From Verrucomicrobiia bacterium (GTDB taxonomy: Bacteria > Verrucomicrobiota > Verrucomicrobiia > Verrucomicrobiales > DEV007): a DNA stretch of 32,111 nucleotides. The position numbers and the translations under genes are program-made. The stretch is from the NCBI GenBank assembly GCA_020439925.1, contig JAGRPC010000116.1, forward strand, positions 1 to 32,111, given 5' to 3'. Below, one piece after another: positions 4,619 to 13,025 of this stretch; the first letter of the stretch is position 1; every line of letters starts with the position of its first letter. The notes under the pieces were generated by a model. That model searched no databases and was not told where the DNA came from. It worked only from the letters and a program-made list of their open reading frames with translations.

Positions 4619-5848
4619 ATGTCTGAGAAATTCCCGGAAGTGGCCCTGAAAATCCACCGTCGTCGGTATGGCAATGACGGAAGGAGGGAATTCTTCGTCA
4701 CCCGATACATCGTGGAGCAAGGGCTTCCTCTTGATGCGGTTTCCGTTCCCTTTGAAGGGTTTGAAGCGGCAGAAGGCCATGTTTGTCTGGCCTACCCCCT
4801 TCTTGGCAAGGACTTGAACGGATGGAACCAGGACCGCGGGCGTCCTTTTTCCGTCGAAGAAACGCGGAGGATTGCGAAGAAGACCCTTGTATTCCTTGAC
4901 GCCTTCCACGAAAGCGGCGCGGCGCACACGGATATCAAGCCGGACAATTTCCTTTATGATCCCGGCACCGGAGAGATTCGCCTGATCGACTTCGGCAATT
5001 CGGAGCGACGTTTCAAGCGAGGTACCCCCGTTGCGACTCGTGAGTACACTCCGCCAGAGGGGATCATCGGTGGAGAACTGGGTCCGGCGGTGGATCTGTG
5101 GTCTTTCGCCTGCACGATCTTCGAACTCCTGACGCGGGAGTTTCTTTTTGATCCGCATGAGGCGGCTGCCGAGAAATACGTCGAGTTTTCAGATGACGGG
5201 GATGAAGACGAAGCGGAGGAGGAAGCCTCCTCTTCGGGAGAAGATCCGTCCGAAGAAGAGGGCCCGTATGCCAAGGGGAGGCTGGTCGCCGGCAAATACC
5301 GGATTCTCGAAGAACTCGGAAGCGGACATTTTGCCAGGGTGTGGCGGGCGAAGGTTGTTCATCCAGATCGTCATCTCGAGCCGCTGAGTCGACCTGCGGG
5401 CTCCGAGGTCTCGGCGGGGGTTTCGTCGGCGCCAGCGGTTCCCCAAACGTCCGGAGTCGAAGCACCGGTTTCACTGCCCGACCGGGCACGAGAGGCTCGT
5501 CGTAACAACAGGAAGCGATTCGGTGTCACCGACACCTATGACCTGGCCTTGAACTACGAGCACCTTCTCCTGATGCAGAACCTGCTTGGCCCCTGTCCTT
5601 CGGAAATGGCGAAGGACGGGATCTTCCACCAGATCTACTTCCGCCCGGACGGAGTCCTGAAATTCGATCCTTCGCCGGAGCCGGTCGCAGCGGAAAAAAC
5701 GATCTCAGCCAGACTGGTTAAGTCGGGTATTGCGAAAGAGGAAGCCACGCAGATCGAATCGCTTCTTCTCGCCATGTTGCGGTATGAGCCAAGGAAACGG
5801 GCCACGGCCGAACAGTGCCTCGCCCATTCGTGGTTGTCAGGGGCTTGA
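4619..5848 (+). CDS. SRPK-like serine/threonine protein kinase with rearranged N-lobe
   Basis: A 409-residue protein kinase. Visible motifs: beta3 lysine VALK (K11); catalytic loop HTDIKPDN (103-110), with the HTD form used by SR-protein kinases instead of HRD; metal-binding DFG (124-126); TREYTPPE (140-147), which replaces APE; DLWSFACTIFELLTREFLFDPH (159-180), very close to the SRPK block ending FEPH; and C-terminal RATAEQCLAHSWL. An acidic run (about 191-214), then GKYRILEELGSGHFARVW (225-242), resembles the SRPK N-terminus and glycine-rich loop, but it lies inside the chain rather than before K11. Only 26 bases separate the palindrome from the ATG and no in-frame ATG lies upstream. The gene is followed on the same strand by an SK/SR-repeat peptide, its likely substrate. 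Catalytic residues appear intact; activity is inferred. No transmembrane segment, so cytoplasmic. Confidence 0.88.
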   Translation: MSEKFPEVALKIHRRRYGNDGRREFFVTRYIVEQGLPLDAVSVPFEGFEAAEGHVCLAYPLLGKDLNGWNQDRGRPFSVEETRRIAKKTLVFLDAFHESGAAHTDIKPDNFLYDPGTGEIRLIDFGNSERRFKRGTPVATREYTPPEGIIGGELGPAVDLWSFACTIFELLTREFLFDPHEAAAEKYVEFSDDGDEDEAEEEASSSGEDPSEEEGPYAKGRLVAGKYRILEELGSGHFARVWRAKVVHPDRHLEPLSRPAGSEVSAGVSSAPAVPQTSGVEAPVSLPDRAREARRNNRKRFGVTDTYDLALNYEHLLLMQNLLGPCPSEMAKDGIFHQIYFRPDGVLKFDPSPEPVAAEKTISARLVKSGIAKEEATQIESLLLAMLRYEPRKRATAEQCLAHSWLSGA

Positions 5849-6137: not shown

Positions 6138-6308
6138 ATGAAACAAAGCATCTTCACGAAGTTCGCTGACGCTGAAATCCTCGGTCTTGAACAAGTCACT
6201 GGCGGCGGAAAGACCAAGTGCGGTTCTTCCAGCAAGTCGAAGTCCAAGAGCAAGAGCCGGAGCCGTTCGGGATCTCGCGGAGGCTGCTGCGATTGCTACT
6301 GCTGGTAA
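6138..6308 (+). CDS. SK/SR-repeat double-glycine-leader peptide (putative RiPP precursor)
   Basis: A 56-residue peptide. The leader (1-23) ends in VTGG with L17 at -7 and V20 at -4 relative to cleavage after G23, which fits the double-glycine signal read by C39 peptidase transporters. The predicted core (24-56) starts GKTKCG, followed by SSSKSKSKSKSRSRSGSR (30-47) and the tail GGCCDCYCW. The core has ten serines, nine Lys/Arg, five Cys and one Asp. The alternating SK/SR stretch looks like an SR-domain, the substrate type of SRPK kinases, and an SRPK-like kinase is the gene before. The C39 transporter is the gene after. A strong terminator follows the stop, so the peptide may have its own abundant short transcript. 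Inferred: phosphorylated on serine in the cytoplasm, trimmed and exported. The Cys tail could bind metal or form disulfides. Final role (antimicrobial, signal, mineral- or surface-binding) unknown. Confidence 0.85.
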   Translation: MKQSIFTKFADAEILGLEQVTGGGKTKCGSSSKSKSKSKSRSRSGSRGGCCDCYCW

Positions 6309-6333
6309 TCTCACTCAAAAGTGAATTCCTTTG

Positions 6334-6372
6334 AAAGGGAGGCAGGTATGCTGCCTCCCTTTTGTGTTTTTT
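6334..6372 (+). terminator. Strong intrinsic terminator after the peptide gene
   Basis: Perfect 12-bp stem AAAGGGAGGCAG (6334-6345) / CTGCCTCCCTTT (6351-6362) with a 5-base loop GTATG, followed by a T-rich run to 6372. It lies 25 bases after the peptide stop and separates the peptide from the transporter gene. High peptide transcription with reduced or separate transporter transcription is the expected effect. Confidence 0.9.
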
Positions 6373-6443: not shown

Positions 6444-8783
6444 ATGTCGATTTCTGCCCGCCAGTCGTGGGAGAGCTATAGGAAGGGCGCCGCAGCCCAG
6501 GGGAGGAGCATCCGATTCTCAGTGTCCCTGTATCCCGGCCGAATGAAGTTCCCCGTCCATCGTCAACTCGACGGACACGATTGTGGTCCTACCTGCCTCC
6601 TTATGGTCGCCGAGTATTACGGGCGACGCTTTTCCCGTGACTACCTCAGGGGCCTCTGTTCGATCGGAAAGGGCGGGGTTTCGCTCCTCGGGATTTCCAA
6701 TGCCGCCGAACGCATTGGCCTCCGCTCCATGGCCGTCAGGATCGGTTATGAGAGGCTCCATCGGGAAGCCATCCTTCCCTGCATCGTTCACTGGCGTGGC
6801 GACCACTTTGTCGTGGTTCACAAAATCACTCCAAAAAAGGTCTGGGTCGCCGACCCGGAACGCGGGCTCATGGTCTACTCCCGCGACCAGTTCATCGCAG
6901 GTTGGACGGGCAGGGAGCCAAAGCGCGGCGACGGCGACGCGGACATCAAGGGCATCGTCCTGCTTCTCGAGGTTACCCCGGAGTTTCACGAAAGCCCACT
7001 GGAGGCGGGGGCTGCGCCGGAAAAGCCACTGAGGAGCCTCTGGTTCTTCGCCCGCTATCTCAGTCCGCACCGGAAACTCGTTGCGCAACTGTTCCTCGGG
7101 ATGTTCGTCGGGCTACTCCTCGAACTGATGTTCCCCTTCATTACCCAGGCGGTTGTCGACCACGGTATCGGGAACATGGACATGTCTCTCATCTATGTGT
7201 TCCTCGCCGCCCAGGTGATGCTTTCGGTGAGCCAGACAGCCACGTCCATGATCCGCAGTTGGATCTTCCTGCACGTCGGGTCTCGGATCGGTATTTCGCT
7301 GGTCGCGAACTTCCTCCAGAAACTCATGCGCCTGCCCCTCTCTTTCTTTGAGACGCGAACGGCGGGCGACATCATGCAGCGGATCAAGGACCACGACCGT
7401 GTGCGGCGATTCCTCACTTCGAATTCTCTCAACGCCATCTTTTCGATTTTTTCCTTTTTTGCCTTCGCCACGATTCTCGCCGTTTACCAGTGGTCCATCC
7501 TCGCGGTTTTCCTTGGTGTTACCGTCCTCTCCGTGATCTGGATGACGGTTTTCCTGAAGCGGAGGAGATCGTACGACCAGTTCCAGTTTGAACTGAATTC
7601 GAAAGAGCAGGACCGCCTCGTCCAGCTTGTCCATGGGGCCCAGGAGATCAAGGTGCACGGACTCGAGAAGCAAAAGCGTTGGGAATGGGAGGAACTGGCC
7701 GCCCGCCTCTTCAAACTGGATGTCAAATGGTTGACGCTGAAGCAGGTCGAGGGAACCGGCTCGTTTTTCCTTCGGAAAATGCGTGACGTGCTGATCTCCT
7801 TCCTCGCAGCCAGGGCCGTCATCAACGGAGATATGACTCTCGGCATGATGCTGTCGACCCAGTACATGGTGGGTCAGCTGAGTGGCCCCATCAGTGATCT
7901 CATGTCCTTCATCCACCAGGCCCAGGACGCCGGCATCAGCCTCGAGCGGATGCAGCAGATCTACCATGAGCAAGACGAGGAAATCGGCTCGCAGCTCAAG
8001 CTTCAGCATTTCCCGCCAAACCGGTCCATCACCTTGAATCGCATCAGTTTCCATTACCCGGGGCCGAAGCCCGTCAAGGTGCTGGACAGCTTGAGCCTTC
8101 ACATTCCCGAAGGCAAAGTCACTGCTATCGTAGGAGCCAGTGGGAGCGGGAAAACCACTCTGCTGAAGCTTCTCCTTGGCCTGCACCAGCCGCAGGAGGG
8201 CGGGATCTATGTTTCCAACATGCCGATCGAAACCTTCGATAACCACGCCTGGCGGGCACGGTTCGGGGTAGTGATGCAGGACGGATTCATCTTTTCAGAC
8301 ACCCTCGCGAGAAACATCGCGTGCGGCATGGGGCACATCGATCAGCAGCGGCTTCGCGCCGCCATCGAGATCGCGAATCTTCAGGAGTTTGTCAGGGGGC
8401 TTCCCGAGGGCCTCGACACGAAGATTGGCGCGGACGGTCGCAGCCTCAGCGGAGGGCAGACCCAACGTGTTCTGATTGCCCGTGCGATATATAAAGACCC
8501 GGAGTACGTCCTCTTCGACGAGGCGACCTCGGCGCTCGACGCGAACAACGAGCACACCATCCTCTGGAACCTGTCCCGCTTCATCCAGGGGCGCACCGTC
8601 GTCGTGATCGCCCACCGCCTCAGCACGGTGAGAAATGCGGACCAGATCGTCGTGATGGATGGAGGATTGATCGTCGAATGCGGTCCCCATCAGCAGCTCA
8701 TTGCCAACCGCGGGCGCTACTATGAACTCGTGAAGAACCAGCTCCAGCTCGAAAACTTGGAGGCTCCCGCGAAAGCCGTTTAA
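6444..8783 (+). CDS. C39 peptidase-containing ABC transporter (leader cleavage and export)
   Basis: A PCAT/bacteriocin-type exporter of up to 779 residues. The N-terminal C39 peptidase has QLDGHDCGPTC (Gln41, catalytic Cys47), GDHFVVVHK (His121) and VADPERGL (Asp137). The transmembrane domain spans about 205-490. The ATPase has Walker A GASGSGKTT (564-572), signature LSGGQTQR (668-675), Walker B YVLFDEATS and switch His in AHRLS. It should remove the leader of the peptide at 6138 after its GG and pump the core across the inner membrane. Start is uncertain: ATG 6444 lacks a ribosome site, GTG 6522 follows GGGGAGGAG at a somewhat long spacing, and ATG 6543 (MKFPVHRQLDG) gives the N-terminus typical of the family and is my favourite on homology. 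The adaptor gene follows 20 bases later, clearly in one operon. Confidence 0.95.
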   Translation: MSISARQSWESYRKGAAAQGRSIRFSVSLYPGRMKFPVHRQLDGHDCGPTCLLMVAEYYGRRFSRDYLRGLCSIGKGGVSLLGISNAAERIGLRSMAVRIGYERLHREAILPCIVHWRGDHFVVVHKITPKKVWVADPERGLMVYSRDQFIAGWTGREPKRGDGDADIKGIVLLLEVTPEFHESPLEAGAAPEKPLRSLWFFARYLSPHRKLVAQLFLGMFVGLLLELMFPFITQAVVDHGIGNMDMSLIYVFLAAQVMLSVSQTATSMIRSWIFLHVGSRIGISLVANFLQKLMRLPLSFFETRTAGDIMQRIKDHDRVRRFLTSNSLNAIFSIFSFFAFATILAVYQWSILAVFLGVTVLSVIWMTVFLKRRRSYDQFQFELNSKEQDRLVQLVHGAQEIKVHGLEKQKRWEWEELAARLFKLDVKWLTLKQVEGTGSFFLRKMRDVLISFLAARAVINGDMTLGMMLSTQYMVGQLSGPISDLMSFIHQAQDAGISLERMQQIYHEQDEEIGSQLKLQHFPPNRSITLNRISFHYPGPKPVKVLDSLSLHIPEGKVTAIVGASGSGKTTLLKLLLGLHQPQEGGIYVSNMPIETFDNHAWRARFGVVMQDGFIFSDTLARNIACGMGHIDQQRLRAAIEIANLQEFVRGLPEGLDTKIGADGRSLSGGQTQRVLIARAIYKDPEYVLFDEATSALDANNEHTILWNLSRFIQGRTVVVIAHRLSTVRNADQIVVMDGGLIVECGPHQQLIANRGRYYELVKNQLQLENLEAPAKAV

Positions 8784-8803: not shown

Positions 8804-10414
8804 ATGCCTTCTCCCGAACAACCCGACTCGTTCCATCCCGCGCGTCAGGCTCAGGAAAACTCCGCGTTCGGATTCTCGGGACGCCCCGCCTTTTCCGGCA
8901 GGCCGGAGTATCCCCTTCTGGGAGAAGCGACGATGGAAACTCCCCGTATTCCCGACGGAGCCGATCCCTCCGCCTCTTCACCGGGAAATCCCTCCACGGA
9001 ATCAACTGCATTTCCTCAAAAGGTCGACCCTGTGCATCACGCGCGTGCCGCTTCCGCCATCGTGCCCGCCAAGGTCGGAGGCAATTCGGTCGATCCTCCC
9101 GACTTTTCCTACGACGTGCAGGAGATCATGGCCAAGACTCCGCACTGGCTTCTGCGGAGCGGCACCACCGTGATCGCCGCTGTCCTTGCAATTGTTCTAT
9201 TCCTGACCTGGATGATTCGCTATCCCGATTCCATCACAGGCACGATGGAAATCGCGGGTGCCAATCCCGCCGTGGATGTCGTGGCCCGCCAGAGCGGTCA
9301 TATCGAGAGTCTGCATGTGAAGGAGGGAGACTTGGTTGAGAAAGGCCAGGTTCTCGCCGTGATCGAATCGACCATACCCGCGGCGAGGGTATTTTCTTTG
9401 AAGGAGCGGCTTTCCGCCCTGACCCCTTTCCTGAGCGACGCCTCCAAATTCGAATTGATCGAGATAGAGGCCGAAGAACAGCTCGGGAAGCTGCAGACCA
9501 GCTATTCCCAGTTTCTCAGCGACTACATCGCACTGCGCGAGATATTCGGGGATGATTATGCGGAGAGAACGGTGCGCCTTCTCTCTCTCCAGGCCGAAGA
9601 ACAGAAAAAGCGGATTTCCAATCTCGAGGGCCAGATTGCCAATGCCGATCGCACGGTACAGCTCGCCCGGGAGCGATATGAGCGAATGGAGAAGCTCCTC
9701 AGGCGCGACACCCTCAGCATCGCCGAATACGAGGAACAGGAAAACGAACTGCTCTCCGTCGAGGCCGCCAAGGCCGAGGTGGTGAGGGCGATGAACGCGG
9801 AACGAGTGTCTGCGCTCGACCTTGAAAAACAGATCAGCGACCTCCGCCACCAGCGGGAGGTGGTCGTTCGTGAGGGCATCACCAAGCTTCAGGAAAGTCT
9901 CAAGCAACTCCTTTCCGGAATCGACATCTGGGAGGAGGACTACGTGCTCAAGGCTCCGGTGGCGGGACGGGTTGCGTTCCTCGACTTCTGGGCCAACACG
10001 CAGTTCGTTGCCGGTGCCAGCCAGGTCTTCGTTGTTGCTCCCGAAAGCACCTCTCTCGTCGGACGAATGGAGGTGAAAGGGAAGGGCGTCGGCAAGATCC
10101 AGCCCGGACAACCTGTCCAGATTCGTTTTTCCGACTACGACTATAAGGAATTCGGAATCGTGACGGGTTCGGTCCGGAACGCCTCCATCGTTCCGAGGAA
10201 AGGGGGCAACCATCTCGTAGTTGTCGACCTCGAGTTTCCGCTGGTGACAAATTTTGGACGTGAGGTTCCCTTCAAGCAGGCGATGCAGGCCGAGGCCAGC
10301 ATTGTCACGGAGGACCTTCGACTCATCGAGCGCATTTTCTACGAGTTGCGAAGGGCAATCACGGACGCGGCGAAACCGAAGGGGGATCCCGAGCCGGCCG
10401 CGGTGAAGGTGTGA
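8804..10414 (+). CDS. HlyD-family periplasmic adaptor of the peptide exporter
   Basis: A 536-residue membrane fusion protein that should link the C39 transporter to an outer-membrane TolC-type channel, which is not in this window. Residues 1-115 are a Pro/Ser-rich, probably cytoplasmic extension. One transmembrane helix spans about 118-138 (TVIAAVLAIVLFLTWMI). The first half of the lipoyl-like domain is about 157-190 (RQSGHIESLHVKEGDLVEKG), a long alpha-helical hairpin rich in Glu/Lys/Arg is about 255-370, the second lipoyl half is LKAPVAGRV at 382-390, and the beta-barrel covers about 415-505. The block around KTPHWLLRSG and FLTWMIRYPD resembles adaptors that accompany bacteriocin-type PCATs in Bacteroidetes. 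The N-terminal extension is longer than usual; an alternative start is the ATG at 8933 (METPRIP). It directly follows the transporter gene. Confidence 0.92.
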   Translation: MPSPEQPDSFHPARQAQENSAFGFSGRPAFSGRPEYPLLGEATMETPRIPDGADPSASSPGNPSTESTAFPQKVDPVHHARAASAIVPAKVGGNSVDPPDFSYDVQEIMAKTPHWLLRSGTTVIAAVLAIVLFLTWMIRYPDSITGTMEIAGANPAVDVVARQSGHIESLHVKEGDLVEKGQVLAVIESTIPAARVFSLKERLSALTPFLSDASKFELIEIEAEEQLGKLQTSYSQFLSDYIALREIFGDDYAERTVRLLSLQAEEQKKRISNLEGQIANADRTVQLARERYERMEKLLRRDTLSIAEYEEQENELLSVEAAKAEVVRAMNAERVSALDLEKQISDLRHQREVVVREGITKLQESLKQLLSGIDIWEEDYVLKAPVAGRVAFLDFWANTQFVAGASQVFVVAPESTSLVGRMEVKGKGVGKIQPGQPVQIRFSDYDYKEFGIVTGSVRNASIVPRKGGNHLVVVDLEFPLVTNFGREVPFKQAMQAEASIVTEDLRLIERIFYELRRAITDAAKPKGDPEPAAVKV

Positions 10415-10742: not shown

Positions 10743-12650
10743 TCACTTGATTTGACTTTCGACCGTGTTCCGTTGTCCGGGAACATAGGTGTTCTTGGCA
10801 TCATCGTAGGAATCTCCACCCCAGTGCCAGAAGAGGGCGGCCTCCCACAACAAGCCGCTGCGAGCGGCGCCTTGATCCCCGTTGCTCAGGGCGGTGTCCG
10901 TGGTAAACCCGTCCGAGCCGTCGCTGTTGATCGAGACTGCCTGGATCGTCAACGCCCCGTTCCGCCATTCGTTGGCCTTTCCGAGGGTATTTGCTTTTAC
11001 CTCGCCAGTGACCGTTGGGATGACGGAGGCCTCGTGGATGACATCCTGGCCCATCACCATCTGGAGACGTTTCAATCTCGCCGTGCCGGAGGTTCCCCCG
11101 AGCGAGAAGACGGTGAGGTCCTTCAAGGCGGTATCGTCGTAGCGTCCAACGGTCGTGTCCAGGGTCCGGCTGGAACCATTCACCTCGTAATCAATGATCA
11201 GGCTCATTCCCGGGGAGAGATTGGCGTTCACCACCGTCAGTTTGAACGGCTGGCTGGGGTCCGTGATCGCCTCGTTGATTTCGATCTGGCTGCTTTCGGG
11301 AATGGCGAAGAAATCGAGCGTGTGGATTCCGTATTTCCCGGTGATGTCGTGAGTGTGGGCGTCGGTACTGCCGTTTGCGATGGAAGCGAGTGTGGTCGAG
11401 GTGTCGAGATCGAGGTGCCCCCCGAAGACGCCCTTCTGGCTGGTCGCAAAGCGGGTGTTCATGCGGCTGTCTTCGTAGCCGACCTTCGCGGCACTGGCGT
11501 AGGCTTTTACGCCGAATCCTTCTGGATAGTCCGAGGCAGTCACAGTGAAAGGACCTTTATAGGGAACCATCGGGCTTGTCGTACCGCTCCCTCCGGGAAC
11601 GGGGACAAGTTGGTAGAGAATCGAGGATAGTCCCGGATCGTTCAAATCGAACAGACTCACGGTAATCGTGTCGACGGGCGGGGAACTGCTGGAATCGAAA
11701 TAGGGATGATCAAAGTCGATGTCCGGGGGACGCAGTTTCTGGGAATAGGCGTAGTAAAGTTCCTCGTTAACCGAACTCGAGTTCCAGATTGTCGAATCCA
11801 CTGCGACAACCTGGGCCTTGATCGAGGATTCCGAAGCGACGGGAATGGCATCACCGCTCGATATCTTCTGCCAGGAGCCGTAGTTGACTGAGTAATAAAT
11901 TTGCCCGGCACCGGGTGGGTTGGGGTCGGTCAGAGTGAGCGAAAGGGGGAAATCAAATTCGGGAAACCTTCCTCCTGGAATCGAAAAGACCGGGGGTTGA
12001 AGCAGGCTTCGTGCAACGGGGACCGATCCCTTCACTGGCGGTGTCGGCAGGGATGACGGTGTTTCCCCCGTGGGAATAGCGCTGGGTGCGCCAGGCAGAG
12101 GCAGGGGAAGATCCTGATAGTCCCAGATCCATGTGCTTTCGGAGGAAAACTGCATTCCGGAGGTCCGGACTTCTTCCGACTCTCCTCCTCCTGCCGCCCC
12201 GGATCGATTCATCACGACTTTTCGGATCCCGCCAGCGCCGCCCCGAACGAGTTCAAATCGTTTCCGCTGCCCCGACCACGTCAACCGCAATGCATCTGAA
12301 TTCGCTTCATCATCGGACTGAAACTCGAATTCCACTTCCCCATCAAGAAAGCTTCCACCAAGTCCGGGGAGTCTTCGGCGCTGTTCTTCGGAGGCCCTCG
12401 TCTTAAGCCTCACAAGCACTTCTCCCGGACTACTTGTTTTGGACAGATCACCTCCGGACGCGAGGTAGGCGGTGACCGCCGAATTCAGCACCCGTAGATC
12501 CTGCTCGAGTTTGACTTCCCTCGCCGCTTCCAGCGAACCCATGCCAACCCTGGAAATCCCCAGCGAAGCCAGTAGGCCTATCACCGAGACAAGGATCACC
12601 ATTTCAACGAATGAGAGACCCGAATCCTTTCGATGGGGAGTAGGATTCAT
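10743..12650 (-). CDS. Type II secretion/type IV pilus-like pseudopilin with large ectodomain
   Basis: About 635 residues from the ATG at 12650. The N-terminus is a prepilin signal: HRKDSG, then LSFVEMVILVSVIGLLASLG. Cleavage after Gly11 would leave Glu at +5 and a hydrophobic stalk helix, so it should be processed by a prepilin peptidase and anchored in or assembled at the inner membrane. The next about 150 residues are a pilin-like head (helix AREVKLEQDLRVLNSAVTAY). The rest is long, Ser/Pro/Gly-rich and beta-type, with stretches such as QIYYSVNYGSWQKISSGDAI and IKAQVVAVDS that recall chitobiase/hexosaminidase C-terminal Ig-like modules. Normal pseudopilins have 150-250 residues, so the ectodomain is an add-on. 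The frame is open further upstream to 12809, but that part has no signal and is AT-rich. No other pilus or secretion gene lies nearby. Confidence 0.85.
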   Translation of the reverse strand: MNPTPHRKDSGLSFVEMVILVSVIGLLASLGISRVGMGSLEAAREVKLEQDLRVLNSAVTAYLASGGDLSKTSSPGEVLVRLKTRASEEQRRRLPGLGGSFLDGEVEFEFQSDDEANSDALRLTWSGQRKRFELVRGGAGGIRKVVMNRSGAAGGGESEEVRTSGMQFSSESTWIWDYQDLPLPLPGAPSAIPTGETPSSLPTPPVKGSVPVARSLLQPPVFSIPGGRFPEFDFPLSLTLTDPNPPGAGQIYYSVNYGSWQKISSGDAIPVASESSIKAQVVAVDSTIWNSSSVNEELYYAYSQKLRPPDIDFDHPYFDSSSSPPVDTITVSLFDLNDPGLSSILYQLVPVPGGSGTTSPMVPYKGPFTVTASDYPEGFGVKAYASAAKVGYEDSRMNTRFATSQKGVFGGHLDLDTSTTLASIANGSTDAHTHDITGKYGIHTLDFFAIPESSQIEINEAITDPSQPFKLTVVNANLSPGMSLIIDYEVNGSSRTLDTTVGRYDDTALKDLTVFSLGGTSGTARLKRLQMVMGQDVIHEASVIPTVTGEVKANTLGKANEWRNGALTIQAVSINSDGSDGFTTDTALSNGDQGAARSGLLWEAALFWHWGGDSYDDAKNTYVPGQRNTVESQIK

Positions 12651-12657
12651 TTTATGG

Positions 12658-12685
12658 AAAATACTATTTGTATTACAATTGTCAA
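12658..12685 (-). promoter_or_regulatory. Sigma70-type promoter for the pseudopilin gene
   Basis: Read on the minus strand: consensus TTGACA (12680-12685) and TATTTT (12658-12663) with a 16-base spacer in an AT-rich patch. The -10 box ends only seven bases before the ATG at 12650, so transcription from it would give a leaderless or nearly leaderless mRNA. Either that is the case or the true start is slightly downstream. Confidence 0.5.
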
Positions 12686-13025
12686 ATTTTTTCTTTGCGC
12701 ATCTGGACATTTGTGCATGAAAGCCCAGTCTTCGTGATATTTCTGAAAGGTGGATTGTTCGTAACGGGGAGTTCTTCCATGCATTCGAAAGTCCATCGCC
12801 TGTCGCCACGTAACTCCACGCCAGCTAATCTGGTGAGGGCTCCCAAGGAGCTCTGCTCCCCTTCGGATTCCACTTTGATTCTTTCTTTCGAAGGACGGGA
12901 CCCACAGACGTTCAGGAAGGCAATGATGTTTTATGATTTCTTGCCGACGGAAAATATGGCTTGTCTCCCATTCTTCCGTCACGGCATGATCGCGATTTCG
13001 GCAAGGGATCTGTGACCACTCAGGG
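12686..13025. other. Intergenic region between divergent pseudopilin and VWA genes
   Basis: About 340 bases with no supported gene. A 115-codon plus-strand frame and a minus-strand frame cross it, but neither has a recognisable domain or ribosome site and both read like chance frames. The region should hold the plus-strand promoter of the TPR/VWA gene, though I found no convincing pair of boxes. Confidence 0.45.

Follow-up and report, generated by a model that had tools for sequence, protein, structure and literature searches.

An export operon in Verrucomicrobiota that pairs a Ser-Lys/Arg repeat peptide with a permuted SR-protein-kinase-like gene

The window analysed here is a 32,111-nucleotide stretch of DNA from a Verrucomicrobiia bacterium (GCA_020439925.1, contig JAGRPC010000116.1). 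It contains a short peptide gene with a kinase gene 290 bp upstream on the same strand and the genes for a peptide exporter downstream:

4619..5848, plus strand: permuted SR-protein-kinase-like Ser/Thr kinase of 409 aa, proposed peptide kinase (phmmer, profile and invariant catalytic residues)
6138..6308, plus strand: precursor peptide gene, 56 aa, translated as MKQSIFTKFADAEILGLEQVTGGGKTKCGSSSKSKSKSKSRSRSGSRGGCCDCYCW and then a stop
6332..6364, plus strand: terminator-like hairpin after the peptide gene
6543..8783, plus strand: C39 peptidase-ABC exporter (a longer ORF opens at 6444; Pfam Peptidase_C39 3.7e-31, ABC_membrane and ABC_tran)
8804..10414, plus strand: HlyD-type periplasmic adaptor (Pfam HlyD_3 1.4e-13)
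10743..12809, minus strand: pseudopilin-like surface protein, candidate accessory partner (C-terminal domain beside the cluster)

Within the peptide gene three parts can be distinguished:

6138..6206, plus strand: double-glycine leader, with F9, A10, I14, T21, G22 and G23 conserved across five homologues
6231..6269, plus strand: SK-to-SR alternating repeat S32-S44, proposed multi-site phosphoacceptor (shuffle and codon analysis)
6285..6305, plus strand: C-terminal Cys cluster CCDCYCW (from the translation), with a comparable cluster only in L092

The first-pass annotation had described this ORF, and both the translation and the homologues confirm it. The leader positions it named (L17, V20 and G22G23) are correct, and its count of ten Ser, nine Lys/Arg, five Cys and one Asp agrees with ours for the 33-residue core that follows the GG (10 Ser, 6 Lys, 3 Arg, 5 Cys, 1 Asp). 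The perfect S-[K/R] alternation in this core spans 13 residues and 12 steps, a run that was reached in none of 20,000 shuffles of the same composition. Because the repeat is written with four different Ser codons and with AAG, CGG and CGT, it is maintained in the protein and does not reflect a repeat in the DNA. The terminator-like hairpin directly 3’ of the gene recurs at the same position in two further loci (L054 3209-3239 and L055 13584-13613); the window as a whole has no more such hairpins than its shuffles, and it is the recurring position that is of note. This placement at three loci suggests that the peptide is expressed above the export genes.

Four independent homologues of the peptide share the conserved leader residues and have Lys/Ser-repeat cores, and one further homologue was found in another order (G796), where the kinase and not the peptide led to it. 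With the peptide profile, E values in the window’s order ran from 1e-19 to 1e-30, the background being 6e-4. Strong matches were obtained in exactly 4 of the 386 genomes of the order, all four of them kinase carriers (P 1.6e-8); the profile was built from those same four, and what is informative is that there were no further strong matches and that each one lies in a kinase operon. A GG-leader Lys/Ser-repeat peptide is present at all five loci with an intact operon, with the cores KKCGGSKKKSHKSKSHKSGGG..., GKCKAKSKSKKKSAKCGKSAKSAKSTKSTK..., GFKKACGGGTKKGSKKSKAKSHKSSKSKK...SCCYCC, SGKCGGGSKAKSNKSKKAHKSGSNKSGSNKSGSNKSG... and that of the window, in precursors of 56 to 81 aa. Common to the five cores are one Cys 2-7 residues past the GG and one or more Cys close to the C-terminus; the Cys-dense aromatic tail to which the first-pass annotation drew attention is not a general feature, a similar one (SCCYCC) being found in a single relative. 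The cores are mostly SK/KS with a net charge of +8 to +14, and the four that were counted hold 8-10 Ser each, most adjoining Lys or Arg. No convincing Pfam or NCBIfam family match was found for the peptides. The peptide was not seen in G180 or G187, whose contigs break off on the kinase’s exporter side before reaching the peptide position.

The window’s own genome encodes a second GG-leader peptide (G000:C434:2004-2072, minus strand; L144 1827-2135), located near a tgt-like gene, with a leader that is 65% identical and a core that starts with CKSYCPPPPCDEPETKAKG. No exporter was found near by on contig G000:C434, and this peptide may share the exporter of the window operon.

Searching the kinase against the PDB with phmmer gave Sky1 as the best match (3e-28), together with SRPK1 and SRPK2, followed by CLKs, DYRKs and PRP4. 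A six-member kinase profile scored Sky1 at 4.6e-58 and 200 bits (largest single piece 128), CLK2/3 at about 155 bits, and DYRK2/3 and PRP4 at 136-143 bits; the best ordinary kinase in the 386 genomes of the order reached 86 bits with an earlier three-member profile. This comparison between unlike profiles is no more than indicative, but by it the SR kinases of eukaryotes look nearer to the window kinase than do the other kinases of its order. SRPK2 and SRPK1 also headed the structural re-ranking (Z 29, rmsd 2.2-2.4 over 275-277 residues, about 30% identity), and the plain Foldseek ranking had PRPF4B and CLK on top. The structural alignment begins at SRPK1 residue 100-101, which we take to be past SRPK1’s own glycine loop. 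Among curated bacterial kinase models MAD6 comes closest, at 108-143 bits (PADLOC also gave PD-T4-6). We took these matches as shared kinase fold only, not as membership in a defence system; at that score the nearest bacterial branch is not empty, so a eukaryotic origin can only be inferred. The window kinase and its six relatives all match Pkinase, and K11, E24, H103xD105xK107xxN110, D124xG126 and G234xG236 are invariant in all seven, with HxD variants of HTD (four), HSD (two) and HGD (one).

The kinase segments that define its architecture are, in the order in which they are encoded:

4640..4657, plus strand: beta3 strand VALKIH with the catalytic Lys K11, at the extreme N-terminus of the kinase (alignment)
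5180..5266, plus strand: acidic insert, net -15, in the alphaF-alphaG loop (charge from alignment)
5291..5353, plus strand: transposed glycine-rich loop, beta1-beta2 GKYRILEELGSGHFARVWRAK (out-of-order match to Sky1 19-47)
5555..5599, plus strand: alphaG motif YEHLLLMQNLLGPCP (alignment), resembling the LAMMER signature EHLAMMERILG (PMC2667211)

SRPK-type kinases have the glycine-rich loop and the acidic stretch N-terminally. Here the loop and the acidic stretch preceding it are located between the FDPHE segment and the alphaG motif EHLLLMQNLLGP. The loop lies past the alphaF region in 7/7 kinases, so the canonical order of glycine loop, VAIK, HxD and DFG is not found in any of them, and the alphaF-alphaG insert is acidic in each (net -4 to -18). 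In its native order the window kinase aligns with Sky1 as three separate pieces; when the segment is put in front, it aligns as one piece with Sky1 19-338 and with Pfam Pkinase 1-263 of 263. The open frame has 427 codons against the 409 of the kinase, and the 18 codons between the previous stop and the kinase ATG exclude room for a hidden glycine loop upstream. An AlphaFold2 model of the kinase (pLDDT 76.5, pTM 0.79) contains a predicted beta hairpin at 227-246 (pLDDT 84-90) flanked by two low-confidence linkers, and suggests that the transposed beta1-beta2 hairpin may dock in the active site. Judged from the alignments, this transposition of the glycine loop rearranges the protein-kinase fold in a conserved way.

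The permuted kinase occurs in six other genomes, namely G081, G078, G118, G180, G187 and, in another order of the same class, G796; several of the kinase-bearing genomes are fragmented. All seven kinase genes adjoin an HlyD gene and/or lie near a C39 exporter gene, and the window exporter and HlyD adaptor are 53-57% and 41-43% identical to their operon partners. Elsewhere the operon runs from the peptide gene through the outer-membrane factor, C39-ABC and HlyD to the kinase, whereas at the window locus the kinase gene lies upstream and no outer-membrane factor is present. At five loci the operon consists of the peptide, exporter parts and kinase, with no further gene. A phylum sample of 387 genomes held no permuted kinase beyond that of the window, and the 213 genomes of the order of G796 held one in G796 only. 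Searches of GTDB contigs (with back-translated patterns), viral contigs and plasmids returned only partial matches to ordinary kinases, which cover part of the core at about 26-36% identity. This patchy distribution suits transfer or loss of the system.

The kinase-first order of the window, unlike that of the other loci, would fit a kinase that is an accidental neighbour of the peptide, or a permutation that is an assembly error. The same segment order is nevertheless shared by seven genomes, the other kinases being 32-39% identical to that of the window, and the same operon is found in two orders; this order-wide and cross-order recurrence refutes the explanation, to which we assign next to no probability.

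The operon bears likewise on the reading of the peptide itself. Its double-glycine leader is borne out by the C39-ABC exporter in the operon and by the leader residues conserved in the homologues. The likeness to SR domains pointed out in the first-pass annotation is strengthened by the SR-protein-kinase-related kinase directly upstream in a conserved operon, and homologues with both leader and repeat, the absence of which was to have refuted the annotation, were found; it overlooked the kinase, the permutation and the gene linkage. With respect to function, a GG leader, C39 exporter, HlyD adaptor and outer-membrane factor are standard for class II bacteriocins and microcins, and an unmodified cationic Cys peptide of net charge +8 to +14 might be exported as is while the kinase only regulates the exporter or gene expression. 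We consider this unlikely, since the kinase resembles those that act on Ser/basic repeats and the operon encodes exactly such a repeat, the kinase and the repeat peptide strictly co-occur, and an immunity gene was not noticed among the operon genes.

The C-terminal domain of the pseudopilin-like protein was found beside the cluster in 4 of the 7 kinase genomes versus 1 of 38 hand-picked controls (Fisher P 0.001). The protein was not found in G118 or G796 and is therefore not essential; a full-length homologue in G014 is remote from any C39 or kinase gene, which makes the pseudopilin at most an optional partner. These proteins, some of them giant (up to about 1,790 aa), have a conserved 250-aa C-terminal domain, for which structure prediction gave a poor model (pLDDT 43), and are encoded at 10743-12809 (minus strand) in the window, L055 1464-6647, L128/L054, and L090 2074-4290 and 4962-7169. 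In G081 a second giant pseudopilin is encoded divergently from a neighbouring ORF of more than 3,200 aa (G081:C109, L143 497-5788 and 6330-16000), at a locus with neither kinase nor C39 exporter.

The explanation that we favour, and consider probable on the gene content and alignments, is an operon dedicated to the modification and export of a Ser-Lys/Arg repeat peptide. Its first step is the sequence-based one, a GG-leader Lys/Ser(/Arg) precursor made beside a C39-ABC exporter, HlyD, the permuted kinase and usually a TolC-like outer-membrane factor. In the second, the basic repeat would dock in the cytoplasm on the acidic alphaF-alphaG insert and the kinase would phosphorylate several to most of the core serines, converting a polycation into a phosphoserine-lysine zwitterion. 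In the third, as expected from the exporter family, the C39 domain would cut after the GG, and the exporter, HlyD and outer-membrane factor would release the core. Bacteria of Verrucomicrobiota type that have the operon probably export a heavily phosphorylated, silaffin-like peptide in this manner. The docking step is proposed because in SRPK1 basic substrates bind an acidic groove made up of the MAPK insert, the alphaF/alphaG loop and alphaG (PMC11809128). In the window kinase it is this alphaF/alphaG loop that is extended into the acidic insert; since the insert also carries the ATP loop, ATP binding might be coupled to substrate docking. SRPK1 is reported to require Arg and not to accept Lys in its place, and CLKs also accept Ser-Lys sites (PMC4841541); with cores that are mostly SK/KS, the specificity of the window kinase would need to be CLK-like.

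Other outcomes of serine phosphorylation can be weighed against the same genes. It might serve self-protection, neutralising a nucleic-acid-binding or membrane-active polycation inside the cell, with the active form outside dephosphorylated. Among the operon genes at the five loci no phosphatase-like gene was noticed, and we regard this as improbable even with the high positive charge of the core and the precedent of CotG, for which it is proposed that phosphorylation neutralises charge and that the unphosphorylated form harms coat assembly (PMC4130616). A lanthipeptide-like route, with phosphoserine as an intermediate that is eliminated to dehydroalanine and closed on Cys, is very improbable: class III/IV lanthipeptide systems have the kinase fused to both a lyase and a LanC cyclase, whereas the kinase ORF here is single-domain, with neither lyase nor cyclase, no extra gene is present at five loci, and Ser far outnumber Cys. 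Such a route would draw on the presence of Ser and Cys in one core, and PMC10604976 describes class III/IV synthetases as using a protein-kinase-like domain in this way.

To return to the modification-and-export operon, a fourth step would follow outside the cell, where the Cys at both ends of the phospho-repeat could cross-link it into loops or polymers. By analogy with silaffins (PMC4557024) and CotG (PMC4130616), we tentatively propose that the phosphopeptide serves as extracellular matrix, as an adhesive or in mineral/metal binding; the chief alternative is an antimicrobial one. More doubtful is the whole reading in which bacteria acquired or independently kept an SR-kinase line, the ATP loop moved into the docking loop, and this rewired SR kinase yields silaffin-like peptides, fully phosphorylated and tied by disulfides, that are secreted to build or mineralise an extracellular or surface structure, perhaps with the pseudopilin.

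If the modification-and-export reading holds, these peptides, with their multiply phosphorylated Lys/Ser repeats, would form a new class of ribosomal peptide, and such zwitterions might be put to use as mineral-binding or adhesive peptides that can be genetically encoded. The rearranged kinase fold, with its transposed glycine loop, is open to direct test. Given that a RefSeq screen reported no convincing CLK kinases in bacteria (PMC12795684), a conserved bacterial family nearest to SRPK/CLK, encoded in one operon with its putative repeat substrate, is relevant to where SR-kinase recognition came from and how it works. Our literature search of open-licence papers found no earlier report of such a system.

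SRPK/CLK kinases are the best sequence and structure relatives (SRPK first, then CLK/DYRK/PRP4) and share with the window kinase a LAMMER-like alphaG and an acidic alphaF-alphaG region; they act on Ser/basic dipeptide repeats, which the proposed substrate here resembles. Of the seven bacterial kinases, four have the HTD that replaces HRD in this family and three have HSD or HGD. The bacterial kinases differ in that they belong to an export operon, have the glycine loop moved into the alphaF-alphaG loop (7/7), have no large SRPK spacer and are paired with cores that are mostly Ser-Lys. MAD6, of the methylation-associated MADS phage defence, belongs to a different system and matches end to end only after the window kinase is re-ordered, and is therefore not permuted. 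CotH of the Bacillus spore coat is of a different family, and no Pfam CotH match or CotH-type domain was found in the window kinase or its six relatives. CotH has been shown to be a kinase, with CotB as a substrate, and the substrate, a protein of the spore coat, has neither a GG leader nor an exporter. What the CotH-CotG/CotB system has in common with the window is a bacterial kinase beside a Ser/basic repeat protein that is highly phosphorylated (CotG, PMC4130616).

Silaffins are likewise short, Lys/Ser-rich secreted peptides; all Ser of silaffin-1A are phosphorylated, and tpSTK1 prefers basic substrates (PMC4557024). They differ in their eukaryotic ER route and Lys polyamines, and the comparison is a reasonable analogy in which the likeness is one of composition only. 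Phosphorylated lasso peptides (paeninodin, PadeK/ThcoK) also have an operon with a dedicated kinase that acts on precursor Ser (PMC9266682), but at one C-terminal Ser, with an unrelated kinase and a lasso cyclase; the window operon has no cyclase, PadeK-type kinase or lasso B/C proteins, its kinase being of the eukaryotic protein-kinase fold. The system fits none of CotH-CotG, silaffins and phosphorylated lasso peptides, which are its nearest analogues. Its peptide-export half is ordinary and agrees with the double-glycine/C39-ABC peptide class both in the leader, with its GG and conserved hydrophobic positions, and in the adjoining exporter and adaptor.
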